A DNA stretch of 33,935 bases. It comes from Caldilineaceae bacterium. GTDB taxonomy: Bacteria > Chloroflexota > Anaerolineae > Caldilineales > Caldilineaceae. The translations under genes were made by a program, and so were the position numbers. Under the pieces are notes generated by a model. The model made no database searches, was not told where the DNA came from, and worked only from the letters and a program-made list of their open reading frames with translations. Every line of letters begins with the position of its first letter. Positions within the stretch are counted from its first letter, which is position 1. The DNA lies in the NCBI GenBank assembly GCA_023384455.1, contig JAHDWH010000049.1, forward strand, positions 1 through 33,935, in the 5' to 3' direction. Positions 16 to 33,935 of the stretch are shown here, in pieces.

Positions 16-307
16 ACGGCGGGAAACTGCCCCCGCCTACTCAACCGGCGCTAGTGTGTAGGTGCGGTTTCTAACCGCACGTTTCGCCGTTGGGTTTGCT
101 GTGCGGTTAGAAACCGCACCTACGAAAATTCAAATGATTGGCCTAACACCGGCACTTCCACACGACGGGAAACTGCCCCCGCCTACTCGACCGGCGCTAG
201 TGTGTAGGTGCGGTTTCTAACCGCACGTTTCGCCGTTGGGTTTGCTGTGCGGTTAGAAACCGCACCTACGAAAATTCAAATGATTGGCCTAACACCGGCA
301 CTTCCAC
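16..307. repeat. Two tandem copies of a 146-bp unit with nested palindromes
   Basis: Positions 16-161 and 162-307 are near-identical; I see mismatches only near 19/165 and 43/189. Each unit holds a 23-bp perfect inverted repeat (58-80 with 101-123 in copy 1) running from GTAGGTGCGG to CCGCACCTAC, with a 20-bp loop. Each arm is itself a small hairpin (GTGCGGTT.../...AACCGCAC). The last 13 codons and the stop of the neighbouring minus-strand nuclease lie inside copy 2 (266-307), so the duplication appears to include the gene's 3' end plus the palindrome. Related palindromes occur near 20918-20973 and 33780-33806. Confidence 0.93.
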
Positions 308-1675
308 CGACCGGTGGCCCTGCTCCTGCAACTTCCCGGACAGGGTGAATTGCGCCTCTTTTTCGCCGTGGACGAGGAATGTCTTTTGCAGGCGTGCTTT
401 GTCGAAATGGGCGGCCCATTCGAGCAGTTCGCTCTGGTCGGCGTGGGCGCTGTAGCCGTCGATGCGCTCCACCTGGGCCCGCACGGGGTACTCGTCCCCG
501 TAGATTTTCACCTCTTTTTCTTCCTCCAAAATCCGCCGCCCCAGGGTATGCTCGGCCTGAAAGCTGACAAAGAGAATCGTATTTTCTTTGTGGGTGATAT
601 TGTTTTTCAGGTGATGGAGGATGCGCCCGCTCTCGGCCATACCGCTGGCGCTGATGATAATCGCCGGGTCGGTGAGGAAGTTAAGCTGTTTGCTGCGCCG
701 CACATCCCGCACGTACTCGATGTGGGGGTAGTCGAAGGGATTGCGCCGCTTGCCTTCGGTCAAAAACTCCTGGACTTCGCTGTTCCAGGCTTCCGGGTGC
801 ATTCGGAAAACGTCCGTGGCGTTGACGGCCAGAGGGCTGTCCACAAAGACGGGCAATTCAGGAATGTCACCGGCCTCGTCCAGCACATTGAGCGAGTAGA
901 CCAATTCCTGGGTGCGCCCCACGGCAAAGGCGGGGATAATCACCTTCCCCCGCCGTTTGGCTGTGGCGCTGACCACCTCTTCCAGCCGCTTGCGGGCGTC
1001 GGCGTGGGAGCCGTGCAGCCGGTTGCCGTAGGTGCTTTCCATAATGAGAATGTCGGCGTCGGTCAGGGTATCCGGCGGGTAGAGGATCGCCAACTCCTCC
1101 CGGCCCAGATCGCCGCTGAAGACCAGCCGCCACTCTTTGCCTGTGCTGAATTCGTGGATTTCCAGCAGGACAAAGGCCGAGCCGAGGATGTGGCCGGCGT
1201 TGTAATAGGTCAGCTTCACCCCGTCGGCGATGGGCACCGGGCGCTGGACGCCCACACTGACAAAGAGGGGCAGCGCGCTGCGGGCATCTTCCTGGGTGTA
1301 GATAGGCTCGACCAGCGGCTCACCCCGCCGTTTGCGCCGTTTATTCAGGTATTGGATGTCAGTTTCCTGGATGTGGCCGCTGTCCAGGAGCATATAAGAG
1401 GAGAGGTTACGGGTGGCCGCGGTACACCAGACGTTGCCGTTGAAGCCCTGTTTGACCAGATTGGGCAGCTTGCCCGTGTGGTCGATGTGGGCGTGGCTGA
1501 GGACCACCGCGTCGATGCTTTTGGGGTCGAAGGGAAATTTTAGATTACGCGCATAGGTATCCGCCCGGCGGCCTTGAAAAAGGCCGCAATCGAGCAAAAT
1601 GCGCTGGCCGTTGACCTCCAGCAGATGCATAGAGCCGGTGACTTCCTGGGCCGCGCCGTGAAATGTAAGTTTCAT
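266..1675 (-). CDS. Beta-CASP metallo-beta-lactamase RNA exonuclease (CPSF/Ysh1-like)
   Basis: A 469-residue cytoplasmic zinc-dependent nuclease of the metallo-beta-lactamase/beta-CASP family; bacterial members process or degrade RNA. The zinc motif HAHIDH is at residues 61-66, a further ligand His at 162 (AGHILGSA), and Asp189 in FSGDLGR. Beta-CASP motifs follow: acidic residue in MESTYGNR (E213), [14 protein letters not shown] around 342-355, and the final His in YSAHAD (H411). The length is normal for the stand-alone family and there is no KH domain. The ATG at 1675 has AAAGG about 9 nt upstream. The last 13 residues are encoded inside the intergenic tandem repeat, so the extreme C-terminus is probably not conserved. 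The RNA substrate cannot be told from sequence. Confidence 0.93.
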
Positions 1676-1856: not shown

Positions 1857-2729
1857 ATGTTCCACAAATACCACGCGCTGGGCAACGATTATCTGATACT
1901 GGACCCGGCCCGACAGAGCGGGACGCTGACCCGCGGGTTAACGCCAGCCCAGGCCATCGCCCTCTGTGACCGTCAACGGGGGGTGGGCAGCGACGGGATC
2001 GTCTATGGGCCACTGCCCGCAGAAACCCGGCCCGGCCACTTTGCCTGTGAAATCTGGAACCCGGACGGCTCCCAGGCAGAGGTGAGCGGCAATGGCCTGC
2101 GTATCTTCGCCCGCTATCTGGTGGATGCCGGCTATGTCGCGCTGGAAAAGAGCGGCGCGTGCATTCTCCACAGCGGCGGACGGGAGATTGCGATTTTCTA
2201 CGGCAGCACAGACGACGCGCCAATTCGGGTCGAATTGGGCCGGGCGTTCAGCGCGCCGGACGCCGGGCGCTTGCCCCCCGAACTGCTGGCGGCCCTCGGC
2301 CCGGCTACGCTTGTGAATGTGGGCAATCCCCACTGCGTCTTTTTCCCCGCGCTGCCCATCGACGAGAGCCTGGCCCGGCGCTGGGGTTCCCTGGTGGAGA
2401 ACGCCCCCGCCTTTCCCCAGCGCACGAATGTTCAGTTTGTGCGGGTGATCGACGCCCACGCCATCGCCATCGAAATTTGGGAGAGAGGCGCGGGCTATAC
2501 CCAGGCCAGCGGCAGCAGCAGTTGCGCGGCCGCGCTGGCCGCCGTCAGCCTGGAGCGCTGCGCGTCCCCTGTGACAGTACAGATGCCGGGCGGAGAGTTG
2601 ACCGTCGATATGGAAAAGGTCAGTGAAAACGCAAGCGCTGGCTGGCGCGTCGCGCTCACCGGCCCAGTGACGCCGGTCTTTTGGGGGGAGTGGGCATCAG
2701 GTCCCCAGTCCCCTGTCCCCAGTCCCTAA
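1857..2729 (+). CDS. Diaminopimelate-epimerase-like protein with both catalytic Cys replaced by Ser
   Basis: A 290-residue protein with the DapF fold signature: N-terminal HKYHALGNDYLILD, VGSDGI (43-48), WNPDGS, NVGNPHC (154-160) and the ERGAGYT segment (209-215). DapF uses two cysteines as the acid/base pair, in the CGNG-x-R and ACGTGACA motifs. Here these read SGNGLR (S77) and ASGSSSC (S218), so both cysteines are serine (AGC codons at both). Known family relatives replace one cysteine (3-hydroxyproline dehydratases have Thr). A double Ser enzyme may be a different isomerase, a dehydratase or a binding protein; I do not assign DAP epimerase activity. The start fits the family N-terminus although no Shine-Dalgarno is visible. 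The last residues (GPQSPVPSP) are encoded by the C-rich repeat. Confidence 0.85.
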   Translation: MFHKYHALGNDYLILDPARQSGTLTRGLTPAQAIALCDRQRGVGSDGIVYGPLPAETRPGHFACEIWNPDGSQAEVSGNGLRIFARYLVDAGYVALEKSGACILHSGGREIAIFYGSTDDAPIRVELGRAFSAPDAGRLPPELLAALGPATLVNVGNPHCVFFPALPIDESLARRWGSLVENAPAFPQRTNVQFVRVIDAHAIAIEIWERGAGYTQASGSSSCAAALAAVSLERCASPVTVQMPGGELTVDMEKVSENASAGWRVALTGPVTPVFWGEWASGPQSPVPSP

Positions 2730-2838: not shown

Positions 2839-2888
2839 ATTTGGGATAACACTTGGAAAAAGAGTCCCCGGAAAGAGGAAATGGAGCT

Positions 2889-3635
2889 ATGAATCTGAAT
2901 TTGTCCGAGCGCCAGAAGAATATCCTTCGCTATATCGCCGTCTTTGTGGCCGACCACGGCTACCCGCCCAGCATTCGGGAGATCGGCAAAGCCTGTGATA
3001 TTTCCAGCACGTCGGTTGTAAAGTATAACCTGAACAAACTGGAGAGTGATGAACTCATCCTGCGCGATGCCGAGGTGAGCCGGGGGTTAAGTCTGAACTG
3101 GGCCAAACTGATTGGGGATGGCTTGACCACAGATTTGGGCCTCTCCACGCCCCAGGCAGTCAATGGCCTATTGGGTCAGGCGGCCAACGGGCTGGCAGGG
3201 CAGGCCAACCGCATTGCCGAACGGACGGTCAATTTTTTCCCCGTTCCCGTGTTGGGGCGTATCGCCGCGGGTATGCCGATTCGGGTAGACCCCTCTGATC
3301 GCTCCAGCGCAGACGAGTGGATCGATCTCAACGAGGCGCTCTATCGGGATCGGGAGAAGCTCTACGCCTTGCGGGTGCAGGGGGATTCGATGGTGGATGC
3401 CAGCGTGCTGGATGGGGATATCGTCATCCTGCGCCATCAGGAGCGGGCCGAGAGCGGCGAGATGGTGGCCGCCTGGATCGACGGTCTGGATGAGACGACG
3501 CTCAAGCGCTTCTATCTGGAGGGTAAGAATGTGCGCTTGCGGGCGGCCAATCCCAACTATACGGATCTGATCTTCCCCGCGGCCCAGGTGAGCGTGATGG
3601 GCAAGGTGGTTTCGGTCATCCGGCAGTTGGAGTAG
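2889..3635 (+). CDS. lexA: LexA repressor
   Basis: The SOS response repressor, which cleaves itself when stimulated by RecA filaments. The N-terminal winged helix occupies about residues 1-70 (LSERQKNILRYI, YPPSIREIGKACDISSTSVVKYNLNKLE). The peptidase domain has the Ala-Gly cleavage bond at A127-G128 (GRIAAGMP), nucleophile Ser167 in QGDSMVD, and general base Lys206 in TTLKRFY. The ATG at 2889 is preferred over an in-frame TTG at 2853, because AGAGGAA (2874-2880) sits 8 nt upstream of the ATG; this gives 248 residues. That is longer than the usual 200-220, and the extra length is in the linker, where NGLLGQA/NGLAGQA is duplicated (92-106). The gene is monocistronic and its promoter carries its own operator. 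Confidence 0.96.
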   Translation: MNLNLSERQKNILRYIAVFVADHGYPPSIREIGKACDISSTSVVKYNLNKLESDELILRDAEVSRGLSLNWAKLIGDGLTTDLGLSTPQAVNGLLGQAANGLAGQANRIAERTVNFFPVPVLGRIAAGMPIRVDPSDRSSADEWIDLNEALYRDREKLYALRVQGDSMVDASVLDGDIVILRHQERAESGEMVAAWIDGLDETTLKRFYLEGKNVRLRAANPNYTDLIFPAAQVSVMGKVVSVIRQLE

Positions 3636-20917: not shown

Positions 20918-20973
20918 TAGGTGCGATTTGCAACCGCACTTCTCCGGGTGAAAGTGCGGTTGCAAACCGCACC
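20918..20973. repeat. GTAGGTGCG...CGCACCTAC palindrome
   Basis: This has the same architecture as the 1-310 repeat: GTAGGTGCGATTTGCAACCGCAC and GTGCGGTTGCAAACCGCACCTAC-like arms (outline) around a short centre, each arm also a mini-hairpin. The rest of the 20840-21045 gap holds a GGTGACA-type repeat (21012-21041) and no gene. Confidence 0.85.
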
Positions 20974-21045
20974 TACAGATTTTTCCAAATGGAATCTGTA
21001 CGACTCGATTTGTCACCCGGTCAGCTTGTCACCTTGTCAAACAAA

Positions 21046-29400: not shown

Positions 29401-29726
29401 GTCAGTTTTTCAAATAGCGGTCGTAATGCTCAGGCATCCTCTGCCTATCAACCACGGAAAACACGGAACACACTGAAAAGAAACGAAGAACTTCCGCGTA
29501 TTCTGTGGACTCGTCAAGAAATAAGTTCCATCCGGTGCGTCGCACTGTCCACGAAATGACTCTAGTCCGCAACCTCATCTGGACAGTGCGACGCACCAAA
29601 ACGGGAAGTTATTCTTTGACAAGCCCTGTGTATTCAGTGGTTATTTCTGTCGTTGGCTGGGTAGTTACGGTCATTGAAAGAAGTTCGACTTTTTCTGAAA
29701 AGTCGAACTTCACAAAGCCGAACGGC
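29401..29726. repeat. Gene-free gap with three different palindrome families
   Basis: The gap has CCACGGAAAACACGGAA-type phrases (29451-29510), and an 18-bp inverted pair GGTGCGTCGCACTGTCCA (29534-29551) with 29580-29597. It also has a hairpin AAGTTCGACTTTT (29681-29693) with 29698-29710. No gene is visible. The last hairpin recurs at 30637-30670 on the other side of the NmrA-like gene. Confidence 0.9.
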
Positions 29727-30577
29727 TACCCTCCCTCCCAACTTTCCCGGTGATCGATCACAAACTGGCGCAGGGTGCCCGGCGGACGGCTTAATAGCTG
29801 GGACAGGTCCGGCGTGATGGTGGCTGCGTTGCCCCGTCCAAGCGTGTAGAGCGCGGCCATCACCAGTGTCATCCCCAGCCCCCGCCCCAGGCGCAGGGAG
29901 TGGCGGACAAAGCCCAACACCGGCGGATTGGCGTAGTCGATCCGCCGCCCCAACACTTCGGAAAAGATAGCCGCCACCTCCGCGTAGGAGAGGGCTGCCC
30001 CGCCGGTCAGAGGATAGGCCCGGTTGGCGTGGCCATCTTCGGTCAGTGCGCGCACGGCCACCGCGGCAATGTCCCGCCCGTCCAAAAATGCGGTGCGGCT
30101 CTGGCCCGCGGGGATGACAATCCGGTTTTCGTCGGCAATCTCGGCCCGGTGGGTGGTGCTGAGATTCTGCATAAAGAAGCCGGCGCGCAGAAAAGTATAG
30201 GGGAGTCCGATAGCCCGGATGTGGGCTTCGATGGCGTGATGGGGGACAAAGCGGTTGCGCTCCACGCCGATCAGAGAGAGAAAGACCACCTGCTCCACCC
30301 CCGCGGCCTGGGCTGCGGAAACAAAGGGATTGATCACCCCTTTGGCGTCACCGATGGCTGGCGGGCGCACCAGCAGCAAGCGGCCTACCCCTGCCAGAGC
30401 CGCCCCATAGGTCGCTGGATCGGCAAAGTCGAAAGGCACAAAGTCGACACTTGTCTGGCCGGATGCAGCAGGCAATCGACGCGCCGCGGCCCGCACCGGG
30501 TGTCCAGCCTGCGCCAGCAGTCGTACCACTTCGCCGCCGACAGTACCCGTGGCCCCAGTAATCAGAATGGGTTTCAC
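29726..30577 (-). CDS. NmrA-like NAD(P)-binding oxidoreductase
   Basis: A 283-residue Rossmann protein with N-terminal ILITGATGTVGGEV (GxxGxxG at 8-14) and an AAARRLP basic cofactor-binding turn after strand 2, which favours NADP. It lacks the YxxxK of classical SDRs, as expected for NmrA-type members, and has PYTFLRAGFFMQN and ALSYAEVAAIFSEVLGR. It may be a sensor or a reductase. The gene is flanked on both sides by the same TTCGACTTTT hairpin (29681-29710, 30637-30670), which is unusual. Confidence 0.9.
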   Translation of the reverse strand: MKPILITGATGTVGGEVVRLLAQAGHPVRAAARRLPAASGQTSVDFVPFDFADPATYGAALAGVGRLLLVRPPAIGDAKGVINPFVSAAQAAGVEQVVFLSLIGVERNRFVPHHAIEAHIRAIGLPYTFLRAGFFMQNLSTTHRAEIADENRIVIPAGQSRTAFLDGRDIAAVAVRALTEDGHANRAYPLTGGAALSYAEVAAIFSEVLGRRIDYANPPVLGFVRHSLRLGRGLGMTLVMAALYTLGRGNAATITPDLSQLLSRPPGTLRQFVIDHRESWEGG

Positions 30578-30622: not shown

Positions 30623-30670
30623 GAAGTTCGACTTTCAGAAGTTCGACTTTTCGGAAAAAGTCGAACTTCT
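30623..30670. repeat. TTCGACTTTT hairpin with partial extra copy
   Basis: AGAAGTTCGACTTTT (30637-30651) pairs with 30656-30670 around loop CGGA; a partial copy GAAGTTCGACTTTC lies at 30623-30636. It matches the hairpin at 29681-29710. Confidence 0.9.
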
Positions 30671-30678
30671 AAAAGGTG

Positions 30679-31752
30679 TTAGGACGGCTCGACCACAAGA
30701 ACGTTGGATCCAAGCGCCTCCGACACCTGCTGCTCCAGCCCATCCGCCTCGTAGCGCAAACGGCGCAGGGCCGCAGGCTTGGCCCCTTTGGGCAGCTTGC
30801 CCAGATTACAGACCGGTTCGCCGGGGCTGATGGCGGGCAGGGTGGTCATCCCGATTACCACCGCGTCGAAGGGCGCGGTGAGGACGCTGCGTTCCTGGCC
30901 CAGGAGAGTTGTGTTGGTGGCCAGGGGGTGGCCTTTTTCAATCAGATCGCCGGGTTTGATGTGGAACTGCAAAAAGCCACCCAATTCGGCCCGCACCCAT
31001 TGGGACTTTTCGATCACCACCTGATAGCCAGGACTGGACGGGGGTGTGTCCAGCATTTCCAGGCCGCGCAACACATTCTTCACCCCGCGGGTGGCCGAGG
31101 CCACAATCCCCGGCTCCACCTTCCAGACCTCCCCCCCCTCCATCAGTATCGTCGGGCAGCCAGCCAGACAGGCTTCCCGGCGGAACGCGCCGGACGGTCC
31201 CTTTTTGTTGATAATAATCTCGCAGCCAAAGGCTTCGGCCAGCCAGCGCACGTTCGGATTGGTCAGATCGCCCCGCACATTCGGGTAGTTTGTGCGGCGC
31301 ACCGCGGCTGTGTGCAGGTCGATGCCGTAGTCGGCCCGACAGACAATTTCGTCGAAAATATGGTGGGCCAGACGACCGGCCTGACTGCCGCTGGCCGAGC
31401 CGGGGAAGGAGCGGTTCAGGTCCCGGCGGTCGGGCAGATAGCGGGAGTGGCGCTCGAAGGCGAGCAGATTGAGGACGGGGATGAGAATGAGCGCGCCCCG
31501 GGACAGGCGCAGTTCCGTGTCCTGAATTAACTGGCGGATGGCCCCGGTGCCGTTGATCTCGTCGCCGTGGATGGCTGCGCTGACGAAGACAACGGGGCCA
31601 TCCTCCTCGGCCCGGCGGATGTGGATGGGAATCTGCACGTTCATTCCGCTGTAGCTCTCGCCCACAACCAGCATCACATCCCGGAATTCCCCCGGAGCAA
31701 TCTTCTCGCCAAACCAGTCATCAATCGGCTTACGTGTGTGGGCTTCAGGCAT
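30679..31752 (-). CDS. AspA/AstE-type zinc deacylase (succinylglutamate desuccinylase family)
   Basis: A 357-residue M14-like deacylase. The zinc motif is AAIHGDEINGTGA (H62, E65) with third ligand H147 in GIDLHTAAV. The substrate-binding RDLNRSFPG is at 110-118. A C-terminal beta domain (about 265-345) ends the protein. Family members cut acyl or aminoacyl amide bonds. The ATG at 31752 overlaps the end of the RimK-like gene by 8 nt, so it is co-translated with the ligase and probably removes what the ligase adds (inference from context; this grouping with RimK and RimB is known in other bacteria). Confidence 0.9.
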   Translation of the reverse strand: MPEAHTRKPIDDWFGEKIAPGEFRDVMLVVGESYSGMNVQIPIHIRRAEEDGPVVFVSAAIHGDEINGTGAIRQLIQDTELRLSRGALILIPVLNLLAFERHSRYLPDRRDLNRSFPGSASGSQAGRLAHHIFDEIVCRADYGIDLHTAAVRRTNYPNVRGDLTNPNVRWLAEAFGCEIIINKKGPSGAFRREACLAGCPTILMEGGEVWKVEPGIVASATRGVKNVLRGLEMLDTPPSSPGYQVVIEKSQWVRAELGGFLQFHIKPGDLIEKGHPLATNTTLLGQERSVLTAPFDAVVIGMTTLPAISPGEPVCNLGKLPKGAKPAALRRLRYEADGLEQQVSEALGSNVLVVEPS

Positions 31753-33022
31753 AGCGCAGATTGTCTTCTTCCTGGGAAATTTGCAGGGAAAGCGAATCGG
31801 AGCCGGCATTGCCTGCCTCGCGCAGGGCCTCTTCGGCCACGGGCAGATCGGGCAACTCCCGGACGGCCAGCCGTCGGTCCCGACGGACTTTGGCCGGGAT
31901 CAGGTCGCGCATCAGCTCCAGCTTGCCAAAGCAGAGCAGCCGATCCCCGGCTTCCAACTGGCGCTGGGGGCGGGGGTTGGGAATCACAATTGTGCCCCGA
32001 TAGAGGGTCAGGGCGATAATATCCTTCTCGCGCAGCCCCGATTCCGCAATCGATTTGCCCACATACTGGGAGCCTTCGGGGATGGAAAGCTCGGCCACGC
32101 CGTAGCCCCGGCTCACAGTCAGCCGCTGGCGCAGATCGATCTCCGGGAAATCGACCTGGGCGGCCATATAGTCGATAATCGATCCGGCGATGTCCAGTTG
32201 GGTGCAGCCTTCGATCCCCTCCAGGCCGGGGGACGAATTGACTTCCATAATTTGTGGCCCGTCTCGCCCTTCCAGCAGATCCACCCCAGCCACCCGCAGC
32301 CCCATAATCTGGGCCGCCCGCACAGCCGTCTCCCGGTAAACTTCGTCCAGTTCCACCCGCTCGGTGACACCGCCCCGGTGGACATTGCTGCGGAATTCCT
32401 GCCCCTGAGCCACCCGGCGCATAGCCCCCACCACCTGATCCCCCACCACAAAGGCCCGAATGTCCCGGCCTTTGCTCTCGGAGACAAATTTCTGGATCAG
32501 AATGTTCTGCTTCTGGCTTTGCAGCAGTTCGATGATGGCCTCGGCGGATTTGACCGTCTCGGCCAGGAGGACGCCGATGCCCTGGGTGCCTTCCAGCAGT
32601 TTGATGATGACCGGCGCGCCGCCCACCCGCTCGATGGCGGGCAGCACATCCTTTTTGTCCCGCACAAAAGTCGTCTGGGGGATGCCGATGCGGTGGCGGC
32701 TGAGAATTTGCAGGCTGCGCAGTTTGTCCCGGGAGTTGGTGATGCCCGCCGAGGAGTTGGCGCAGAAGACGTCCATCTGCTCGAACTGGCGCACGACAGC
32801 CGTGCCGTAATAGGTGATGGACGCGCCGATGCGGGGCAGCACCGCGTCGTAATGGGAGAGCGGTTTCTGATTGTAAAAGAGGTCGGGCGCGCCTTCCTTC
32901 AGGTCGATGGCAAATTTGAGGGTATTGAGCACTTTGACTTCGTGCCCCCGCTGCACCGCGGCTTCGCGCAGGCGTCGGGTGCTGTAACACTTCGGGCTGC
33001 ACGAGAGAATTCCCAATTTCAT
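31745..33022 (-). CDS. RimK-like ATP-grasp ligase with C-terminal TrkA-C domain
   Basis: A 425-residue protein. Residues 1-95 form the RimK N-terminal domain (MKLGILSCSP...), and about 95-290 are ATP-grasp: KLLEGTQGIGVLL, the IQKFVSESKGRDIRAFVVG stretch, and metal site QIMEVNSSPGLEGIE. RimK-type enzymes ligate glutamate or similar amino acids. Residues about 303-378 (VSRGYGVAELSIPEGSQYVG start, LEAGDRLLCFG near 356-366) match a TrkA-C (RCK_C) ligand-binding domain, which ordinary RimK lacks. An acidic tail follows. The ATG at 33022 has AAAGGGA about 5 nt upstream. The TrkA-C domain may sense a ligand and control activity (inference). Confidence 0.9.
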   Translation of the reverse strand: MKLGILSCSPKCYSTRRLREAAVQRGHEVKVLNTLKFAIDLKEGAPDLFYNQKPLSHYDAVLPRIGASITYYGTAVVRQFEQMDVFCANSSAGITNSRDKLRSLQILSRHRIGIPQTTFVRDKKDVLPAIERVGGAPVIIKLLEGTQGIGVLLAETVKSAEAIIELLQSQKQNILIQKFVSESKGRDIRAFVVGDQVVGAMRRVAQGQEFRSNVHRGGVTERVELDEVYRETAVRAAQIMGLRVAGVDLLEGRDGPQIMEVNSSPGLEGIEGCTQLDIAGSIIDYMAAQVDFPEIDLRQRLTVSRGYGVAELSIPEGSQYVGKSIAESGLREKDIIALTLYRGTIVIPNPRPQRQLEAGDRLLCFGKLELMRDLIPAKVRRDRRLAVRELPDLPVAEEALREAGNAGSDSLSLQISQEEDNLRYA

Positions 33023-33167
33023 ACGAATCCCTTTCGTCTGACAAGAGTGCGATGCGGACAAACAACCACAGAATAGACAGACCACACGGAAAATTTCTCT
33101 TTGACTTTCTTTCCGTCTGTTTCGTATTTTCTGTGGTTGGCCCGCAGATGTTGTAGTGCGATAGTCT
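33023..33167. repeat. CCACAGAA-type repeat between RimB and RimK genes
   Basis: ACCACAGAATA near 33066 and TATTTTCTGTGGT near 33126 form an imperfect inverted pair. No gene is present. Confidence 0.65.
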
Positions 33168-33699: not shown

Positions 33700-33935
33700 T
33701 TTACTACATTGTCAACAAAATTTATGCCGTATCGTAGGCGCTGCTTGTAGCTGCGCAAGAGACGAGTGCCCCTGCGGCTGGCTGTGCGGTTCAAAACCGC
33801 ACCTACAGAAATCCCACATTACTTCGTTTACAAAGCATCTACTACACTCTCAACAAAGTTTTTTGCGCTACCGTAGGCGCTGCTTGTAGCTGCGCAAGAG
33901 ACGAGTACCCCTGCGGCTGGCTGTGCGGTTCAAAA
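33700..33935. repeat. 139-bp tandem repeat running off the window
   Basis: 33733-33796 and 33872-33935 match almost completely (GTAGGCGCTGCTTGTAGCTG... to ...GTGCGGTTCAAAA), with a period of 139 bp. The similarity extends upstream (TCAACAAA words near 33712 and 33850). The GTGCGGTT...AACCGCACCTAC palindrome seen at the window's left end recurs here. Confidence 0.9.

Follow-up and report, generated by a model that had tools for sequence, protein, structure and literature searches.

A DapF homologue with serine at both catalytic cysteine positions belongs to a distinct and probably functional Ser/Ser branch

In the textbook view, cofactor-independent amino-acid epimerases need two cysteines, and covalent inhibitors of diaminopimelate (DAP) epimerase, DapF, target the catalytic thiols. 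DAP itself serves the synthesis of lysine and of cell walls. DapF (TIGR00652, PF01678) has been solved from Anabaena (9MRO), Arabidopsis (3EJX) and H. influenzae (1BWZ). The contacts to both ends of DAP in the Anabaena enzyme are Asn13, Asn66, Asn164, Asn197, Glu215, Arg216, Gly76-Asn77 and Gly225-Thr226 (PMC12039745), and a redox switch was described for DapF of C. glutamicum (PMC5296763). HisR, CntK, PddB and O-ureidoserine racemase have a DapF-like fold, and similarity to DapF can therefore hide another substrate; HisR and PddB were shown to use two cysteines. An engineered single Cys-to-Ser exchange left PddB with less than 0.1% activity, in line with reports on Mt-DapF and others (PMC8225329), and the corresponding change greatly reduced the activity of HisR (PMC11602996). 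Serine does substitute a catalytic cysteine in working enzymes of the proline racemase superfamily, which belong to the same overall fold class. The Ser/Cys enzyme B9JQV3 truly epimerizes 4-hydroxyproline, and B9K4G4, with a Ser/Thr pair, is a trans-3-hydroxyproline dehydratase; an Asn at +3 after the first serine positions that residue (PMC4113996). Their substrates are proline derivatives, and we found no Ser/Ser pair described among them. We found no report of a Ser/Ser DapF among open-licence papers.

The window analyzed here is a stretch of 33,935 nucleotides from a Caldilineaceae bacterium (GCA_023384455.1, contig JAHDWH010000049.1). It encodes a protein of 290 amino acids at positions 1857 to 2729 of the plus strand, starting with ATG. 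The protein passed the curated cut-off of the DapF equivalog model TIGR00652 over residues 2-278 (175.4 bits, cut-off 114.65) as well as that of the Pfam DAP_epimerase family (136.8 bits, cut-off 34.7). PF01678 was its exclusive Pfam match; neither the proline racemase family nor the PhzF family was matched, and the likeness to PhzF is one of fold only. The AlphaFold2 model showed a confident DapF fold (mean pLDDT 93.9), and its top 26 PDB matches were DapF or O-ureidoserine racemase structures. Identity to proline racemase superfamily structures, which represent another sequence family, amounted to 12-17%. In the genome of the window (G000), the two PF01678 matches listed correspond to the two half-domains of this gene. 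Thus, the second, Cys-containing dapF that we had looked for was absent among the matches listed.

In alignments to solved DapFs (e.g., 9mro and 3ejx), both catalytic cysteines were matched by serines, Ser77 and Ser218, confirming together with the reading frame what a preliminary description of the gene had claimed. The first site reads AEVSGNG in the window protein vs. PEMCGNG in the solved enzymes, the second TQASGSSSC vs. TLACGTGAC. DapF is characterized by two catalytic cysteines at helix N termini; here, Ser77 (codon AGC, 2085-2087, plus strand) is located at the N terminus of helix 78-90, and Ser218 (codon AGC, 2508-2510, plus strand) at that of helix 219-231. With no thiols at the active positions, a redox switch of the C. 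glutamicum type is impossible in this protein. The substrate-binding motifs were retained, as also claimed previously, with ALGND, NPDGS, GNPH and ERGAG all present. By alignment to Anabaena DapF (contacts from PMC12039745), the proximal contact to the alpha-amine corresponds to Asn10 (Anabaena Asn13; 1884-1886), which was invariant across Ser/Ser and Cys/Cys sequences. The distal contacts correspond to Asn68 (Asn66; 2058-2060), Asn157 (Asn164; 2325-2327), Asn191 (Asn197; first codon of 2427-2435, followed by Val192 and Gln193) and Glu209-Arg210 (Glu215-Arg216, contacting the distal amino and carboxylate groups; 2481-2486), all on the plus strand. Including G78-N79 and G219-S220, every equivalent of the Anabaena contacts is present. 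The window protein therefore shares its fold, full length and proximal and distal contacts with DapF, and the retained distal contacts set it apart from HisR, CntK, PddB and O-ureidoserine racemase. It differs from DapF by serine at both catalytic positions and by Phe12 to Tyr, Cys83 to Ile, Glu193 to Gln and Gly221 to Ser.

To place these exchanges, DapF sequences were sampled from 400 genomes across the phylum, 46 genomes belonging to the order, and named genomes. Among 141 distinct sequences, 83 were Cys/Cys, 47 Ser/Ser, nine Cys/Ser and two Ser/Cys. All 47 Ser/Ser sequences formed a single clade (SH-aLRT 98) in a tree computed with both catalytic columns masked, and the earlier suggestion that the pair could be a clade signature thus held. 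The clade contains the genus of the window, its sister genus, the Chloroflexota families f17, f32, f40, f44, f49, f63, f69 and f73 (our designations), one metagenome-assembled genome (MAG) labeled Dadabacteria and two Dictyoglomota sequences. The lone Dadabacteria case could be a binning error. A search of Dictyoglomota detected DapF in six of seven genomes, and all six were Ser/Ser. The named records closest to the window DapF are MAGs labeled Anaerolineae, Caldilineaceae and Litorilinea; we accordingly refer to the order of the window as Caldilineales. On sequence grounds, we conclude that the window gene is a member of a distinct, old and conserved Ser/Ser DapF branch of single origin.

Serines at these positions could also stem from an error in sequencing or assembly, or from decay of recent date, and cysteines at both sites in the closest relatives had been named as the observation pointing that way. 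The relatives found, six other genomes of the genus and both genomes of the sister genus, were all Ser/Ser at 58-79% identity, and the pair recurs in dozens of independent genomes assigned nominally to three phyla. Among the window gene and its relatives in the genus and sister genus, dN/dS was 0.10-0.27; the gene is under purifying selection. The Ser77 codon was AGY in 47 of 47 Ser/Ser sequences, and position 218 was encoded mostly by TCN (38 of 38 sequences outside Caldilineales), with AGY in nine of nine Caldilineales sequences. To get from TCN to AGY, a codon has to pass through Cys or Thr or undergo a double change; serine was nevertheless kept. Based on the relatives, the codon pattern and dN/dS, we rejected error or decay, whose probability we consider negligible.

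Ser/Ser and Cys/Cys sequences were split nearly perfectly at seven positions: Tyr12 (Phe in Cys/Cys), Ser77 (Cys), Ile83 (Cys), Gln193 (Glu), Ile207 (Val), Ser218 (Cys) and Ser221 (Gly). In the window, the signature codons are located on the plus strand at 1890-1892 (Tyr12; Phe in 42 of 43 Cys/Cys rows), 2103-2105 (Ile83; Cys in 43 of 43) and 2517-2519 (Ser221; Gly in 43 of 43), with Gln193 being the last codon of the stretch given above (Glu in 41 of 43). Every member of the clade has serine, replacing Gly, three residues after Ser218 (+3). In addition, we identified DapFs with a single serine. Cys77/Ser218 proteins occur in Alphaproteobacteria (L050, L082, L101, L089 and L098), Candidatus Fermentithermobacillaceae (L083, L106 and L110) and one Chloroflexota genome (G226; L178), and masking of the signature columns gave a tree that needs six changes from Cys218 to Ser. 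Every lineage with this change holds at least one of Tyr12, Gln193, Ile207 and Ser221: Tyr12 occurs in two independent Cys77/Ser218 lineages, Gln193 in two further Ser218 lineages, and G226 combines Tyr12, Gln193 and Ser221. Across 85 Cys218 rows, Tyr12 was found twice, Ile207 once, and Gln193 and Ser221 never; the two Ser77/Cys218 proteins (L142 of G194 and L156 of G391) carry none of the signature residues. The sequence pattern suggests that the co-changes retune the surroundings of a serine at position 218. A sign test for coevolution counted four independent pairs on well-supported branches, a pattern that is too small for significance, and within the Ser/Ser clade all signature residues trace to one branch, which makes their linkage in the clade a single event.

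Three candidates for a substitute catalytic group were rejected. Most of family f32 lacks Cys223 (+5 of Ser218), a potential shifted thiol; Cys160 is absent from three Ser/Ser rows and widespread among Cys/Cys enzymes. A general Ser-Lys pair of Lys/Arg76 with Ser77 was discarded since position 76 is Val in all Caldilineales rows.

We consider it slightly better than an even chance that the Ser/Ser branch is catalytically active on DAP or a nearly identical amino acid with two amino-acid ends. The full proposal, to which we give somewhat less than an even chance, is that of a thiol-free epimerase family with two serines. It would perform the two-base alpha-proton exchange of DapF, would provide Dictyoglomota and several Chloroflexota families with their sole DAP epimerase, and would have undergone a partly convergent retuning (Tyr12, Gln193, Ile207 and Ser221) whenever the second cysteine became serine. 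The alpha-proton of DAP would be transferred by two bases, both of them serines; Ser221 at +3 would hold Ser218, and we conjecture that Tyr12, Gln193 and Ile207 retune the pocket. What the data show directly are the sequence, the clade, the single copy, pathway gene content, gene neighborhoods, conserved contacts and selection; any activity, the substrate and the role of the serines as bases are inferred. The pKa of serine argues against it as a base. We prefer two-base proton transfer by serine because of the invariant serine at +3 and the precedent of the proline racemase superfamily, which includes a Ser/Cys epimerase with a serine positioned from +3 (PMC4113996). The engineered Cys-to-Ser mutants count against catalysis by serine, but they lack the co-changes of the clade.

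The near-abolished activity of such mutants could also mean that the Ser/Ser proteins have lost catalysis and persist in a binding or regulatory function, and a second role, an interaction with RppH, is described for E. coli DapF (PMC4227774). We regard loss of catalysis as improbable, since the Ser/Ser proteins are not spare copies, no other DapF having been found even in genomes with a DAP pathway, serine was preserved through the codon switch, and the active-site contacts and the serine at +3 are invariant. The Ser/Ser protein is thus probably not a broken enzyme but a functioning one whose chemistry is unusual.

Gene neighborhoods and gene content bear on the substrate. In family f63, dapF, dapC and dapD follow each other on the same strand at three loci (L125, L126 and L132), with dapC at a fourth (L134); dapL adjoins the Ser/Ser gene in f40 and f73, and lysA is located about 0.04-1.2 kb from it in f44. 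The DapC and DapD examples were above the curated cut-offs, while DapL passed PRK09276 and was slightly below TIGR03540. The Ser/Ser DAP-pathway relatives thereby resemble DapF also in their dap neighborhood. No dap or lysA neighbors were seen beside the Ser/Ser gene in f32, f49, f69 or the genus of the window. The PF01678 matches listed for 35 genomes (32 Ser/Ser and three with one serine) fit one DapF gene each, with an additional DapF fragment at a contig end in G188. A bypass via meso-DAP dehydrogenase was rejected, as this enzyme never exceeded the cut-off in the 26 genomes searched. LysA without LysX was found in f63, f73, f40, f49 and f32, along with DapB in most of these genomes (missing in G225, G169, G307 and G331, all of which are incomplete). 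DapB was detected in G188 and in G445-G447. The DapB search was positive for the Dadabacteria-labeled genome and two Dictyoglomota genomes.

In relatives with DapB and LysA that lack a LysX-type route, the Ser/Ser gene is the sole candidate epimerase by gene content, which makes Ser-based epimerization of DAP the best reading there; the protein would act as the LL/meso-DAP epimerase of lysine synthesis. The preliminary description had left a choice between a different reaction and a loss of catalysis. That choice is supported only in part. Loss is disfavored by the invariant signature, purifying selection and the retained contacts. A different reaction is not shown either: in the DAP-pathway relatives, the sole DapF and, in several families, the dap clusters point to the ordinary DAP role carried out by unusual chemistry.

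DNPR is the motif of MurE enzymes that add meso-DAP. In the genomes examined (MurE loci L181-L210), DNPR was replaced, in most of them by EDPR; the Ser/Ser families f63, f73, f40, f69 and f32 carry DDPL, DDPG, DDPV or DDPY, and two Cys/Cys genomes carry ENPR and DDPR. Judged by this motif, many Ser/Ser genomes probably use a wall diamine other than meso-DAP, which would leave lysine as the main use of DapF. A wall that may not need meso-DAP would also suit a scenario in which LysA takes LL-DAP, an epimerase is unnecessary for lysine, and DapF has drifted or been repurposed. This seems very unlikely to us, because LysA passed its equivalog cut-off in nearly all Ser/Ser families, the invariant signature is unlike drift, and the gene remains in dap clusters in several families.

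The organism of the window requires separate consideration. Homocitrate synthase and LysX, indicative of the alpha-aminoadipate route, were found in its order (with or without the Ser/Ser gene), f44 and f17, and two models did not detect DapB in G000, the searched members of the order, f44 or f17. G000 itself has homocitrate synthase, and LysX gave no match above the cut-off; since LysX is present in genus mates, the G000 copy may lie in an assembly gap. Without dapB, no DAP is made by the known route in this genome and order. Most Caldilineales tested have a LysA homologue, although G000 yielded only a contig-end fragment and a weak paralogue; in most members of the order (e.g., G417, G427 and G436), LysA above the curated cut-off occurs together with alpha-aminoadipate lysine genes and no DapB.

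The neighbors in the window gave no functional clue. Downstream is a LexA-like repressor (2853-3635, plus strand), which stays adjacent to the DapF gene across the genus and sister genus and lies outside the system, and upstream a metallo-beta-lactamase-fold protein (266-1675, minus strand) with no link to DAP, both named from sequence. C-rich low-complexity spacers (CCCCAATCCC-like) at 1833-1860 and 2699-2755 abut the start codon and enter the final codons of the reading frame; the C-terminal tail GPQSPVPSP derives from this repeat and is modeled with low confidence.

The absence of dapB and the lexA rather than dap neighborhood count against a DAP role in this genome. The lineage of the window, and also f44 and f17, could have been recruited to another substrate or reaction, such as racemization or elimination of a diamino acid, with the DAP-pathway relatives keeping DAP epimerization. 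The missing DapB and the alpha-aminoadipate genes fit such a recruitment. At 0.87 changes per column, the branch leading to Caldilineales is long, which together with Val76 could leave room for a new function; HisR and PddB exemplify DapF-like proteins with other substrates, and the Ser/Thr enzyme of the proline racemase family is a dehydratase (PMC4113996). On the other hand, Caldilineales retain the residues that bind the two ends of DAP, the f44 gene is near lysA, which encodes the next enzyme of the DAP route, and LysA homologues are found in most Caldilineales tested. We therefore consider recruitment unlikely, albeit with a considerable residual probability, and the preliminary idea of another amino acid survives as a possibility for the organism of the window. 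Under our preferred proposal of a Ser-based epimerase, the enzyme would act here on a different diamino acid or, given that the order has LysA homologues, on salvaged DAP.

If the Ser/Ser branch is the sole DapF of bacteria with a DAP pathway, hydroxyl bases would abstract the alpha-proton of an amino acid fast enough for lysine synthesis; alternatively, those bacteria would make lysine without the known epimerase. Automatic DapF annotation masks the difference, as the window protein passes the curated cut-off.

Additional features were observed elsewhere in the window. Repeats with a TGCGGTTTCTAACCGCA-like palindrome are located at 10-301, 20942-20979 and 33721-33935 and include a near-perfect tandem of 146 bases. 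Another palindrome, GAAGTTCGACTTTT...AAAAGTCGAACTTC, occurs in two copies (29679-29717 and 30637-30675) on either side of the gene at 29726-30577. The stretch 30679-33085 encodes, on the minus strand, a RimK-like ATP-grasp ligase with a weak LysX match (138 bits) and, following it, an aspartoacylase/desuccinylase-like protein named from sequence.
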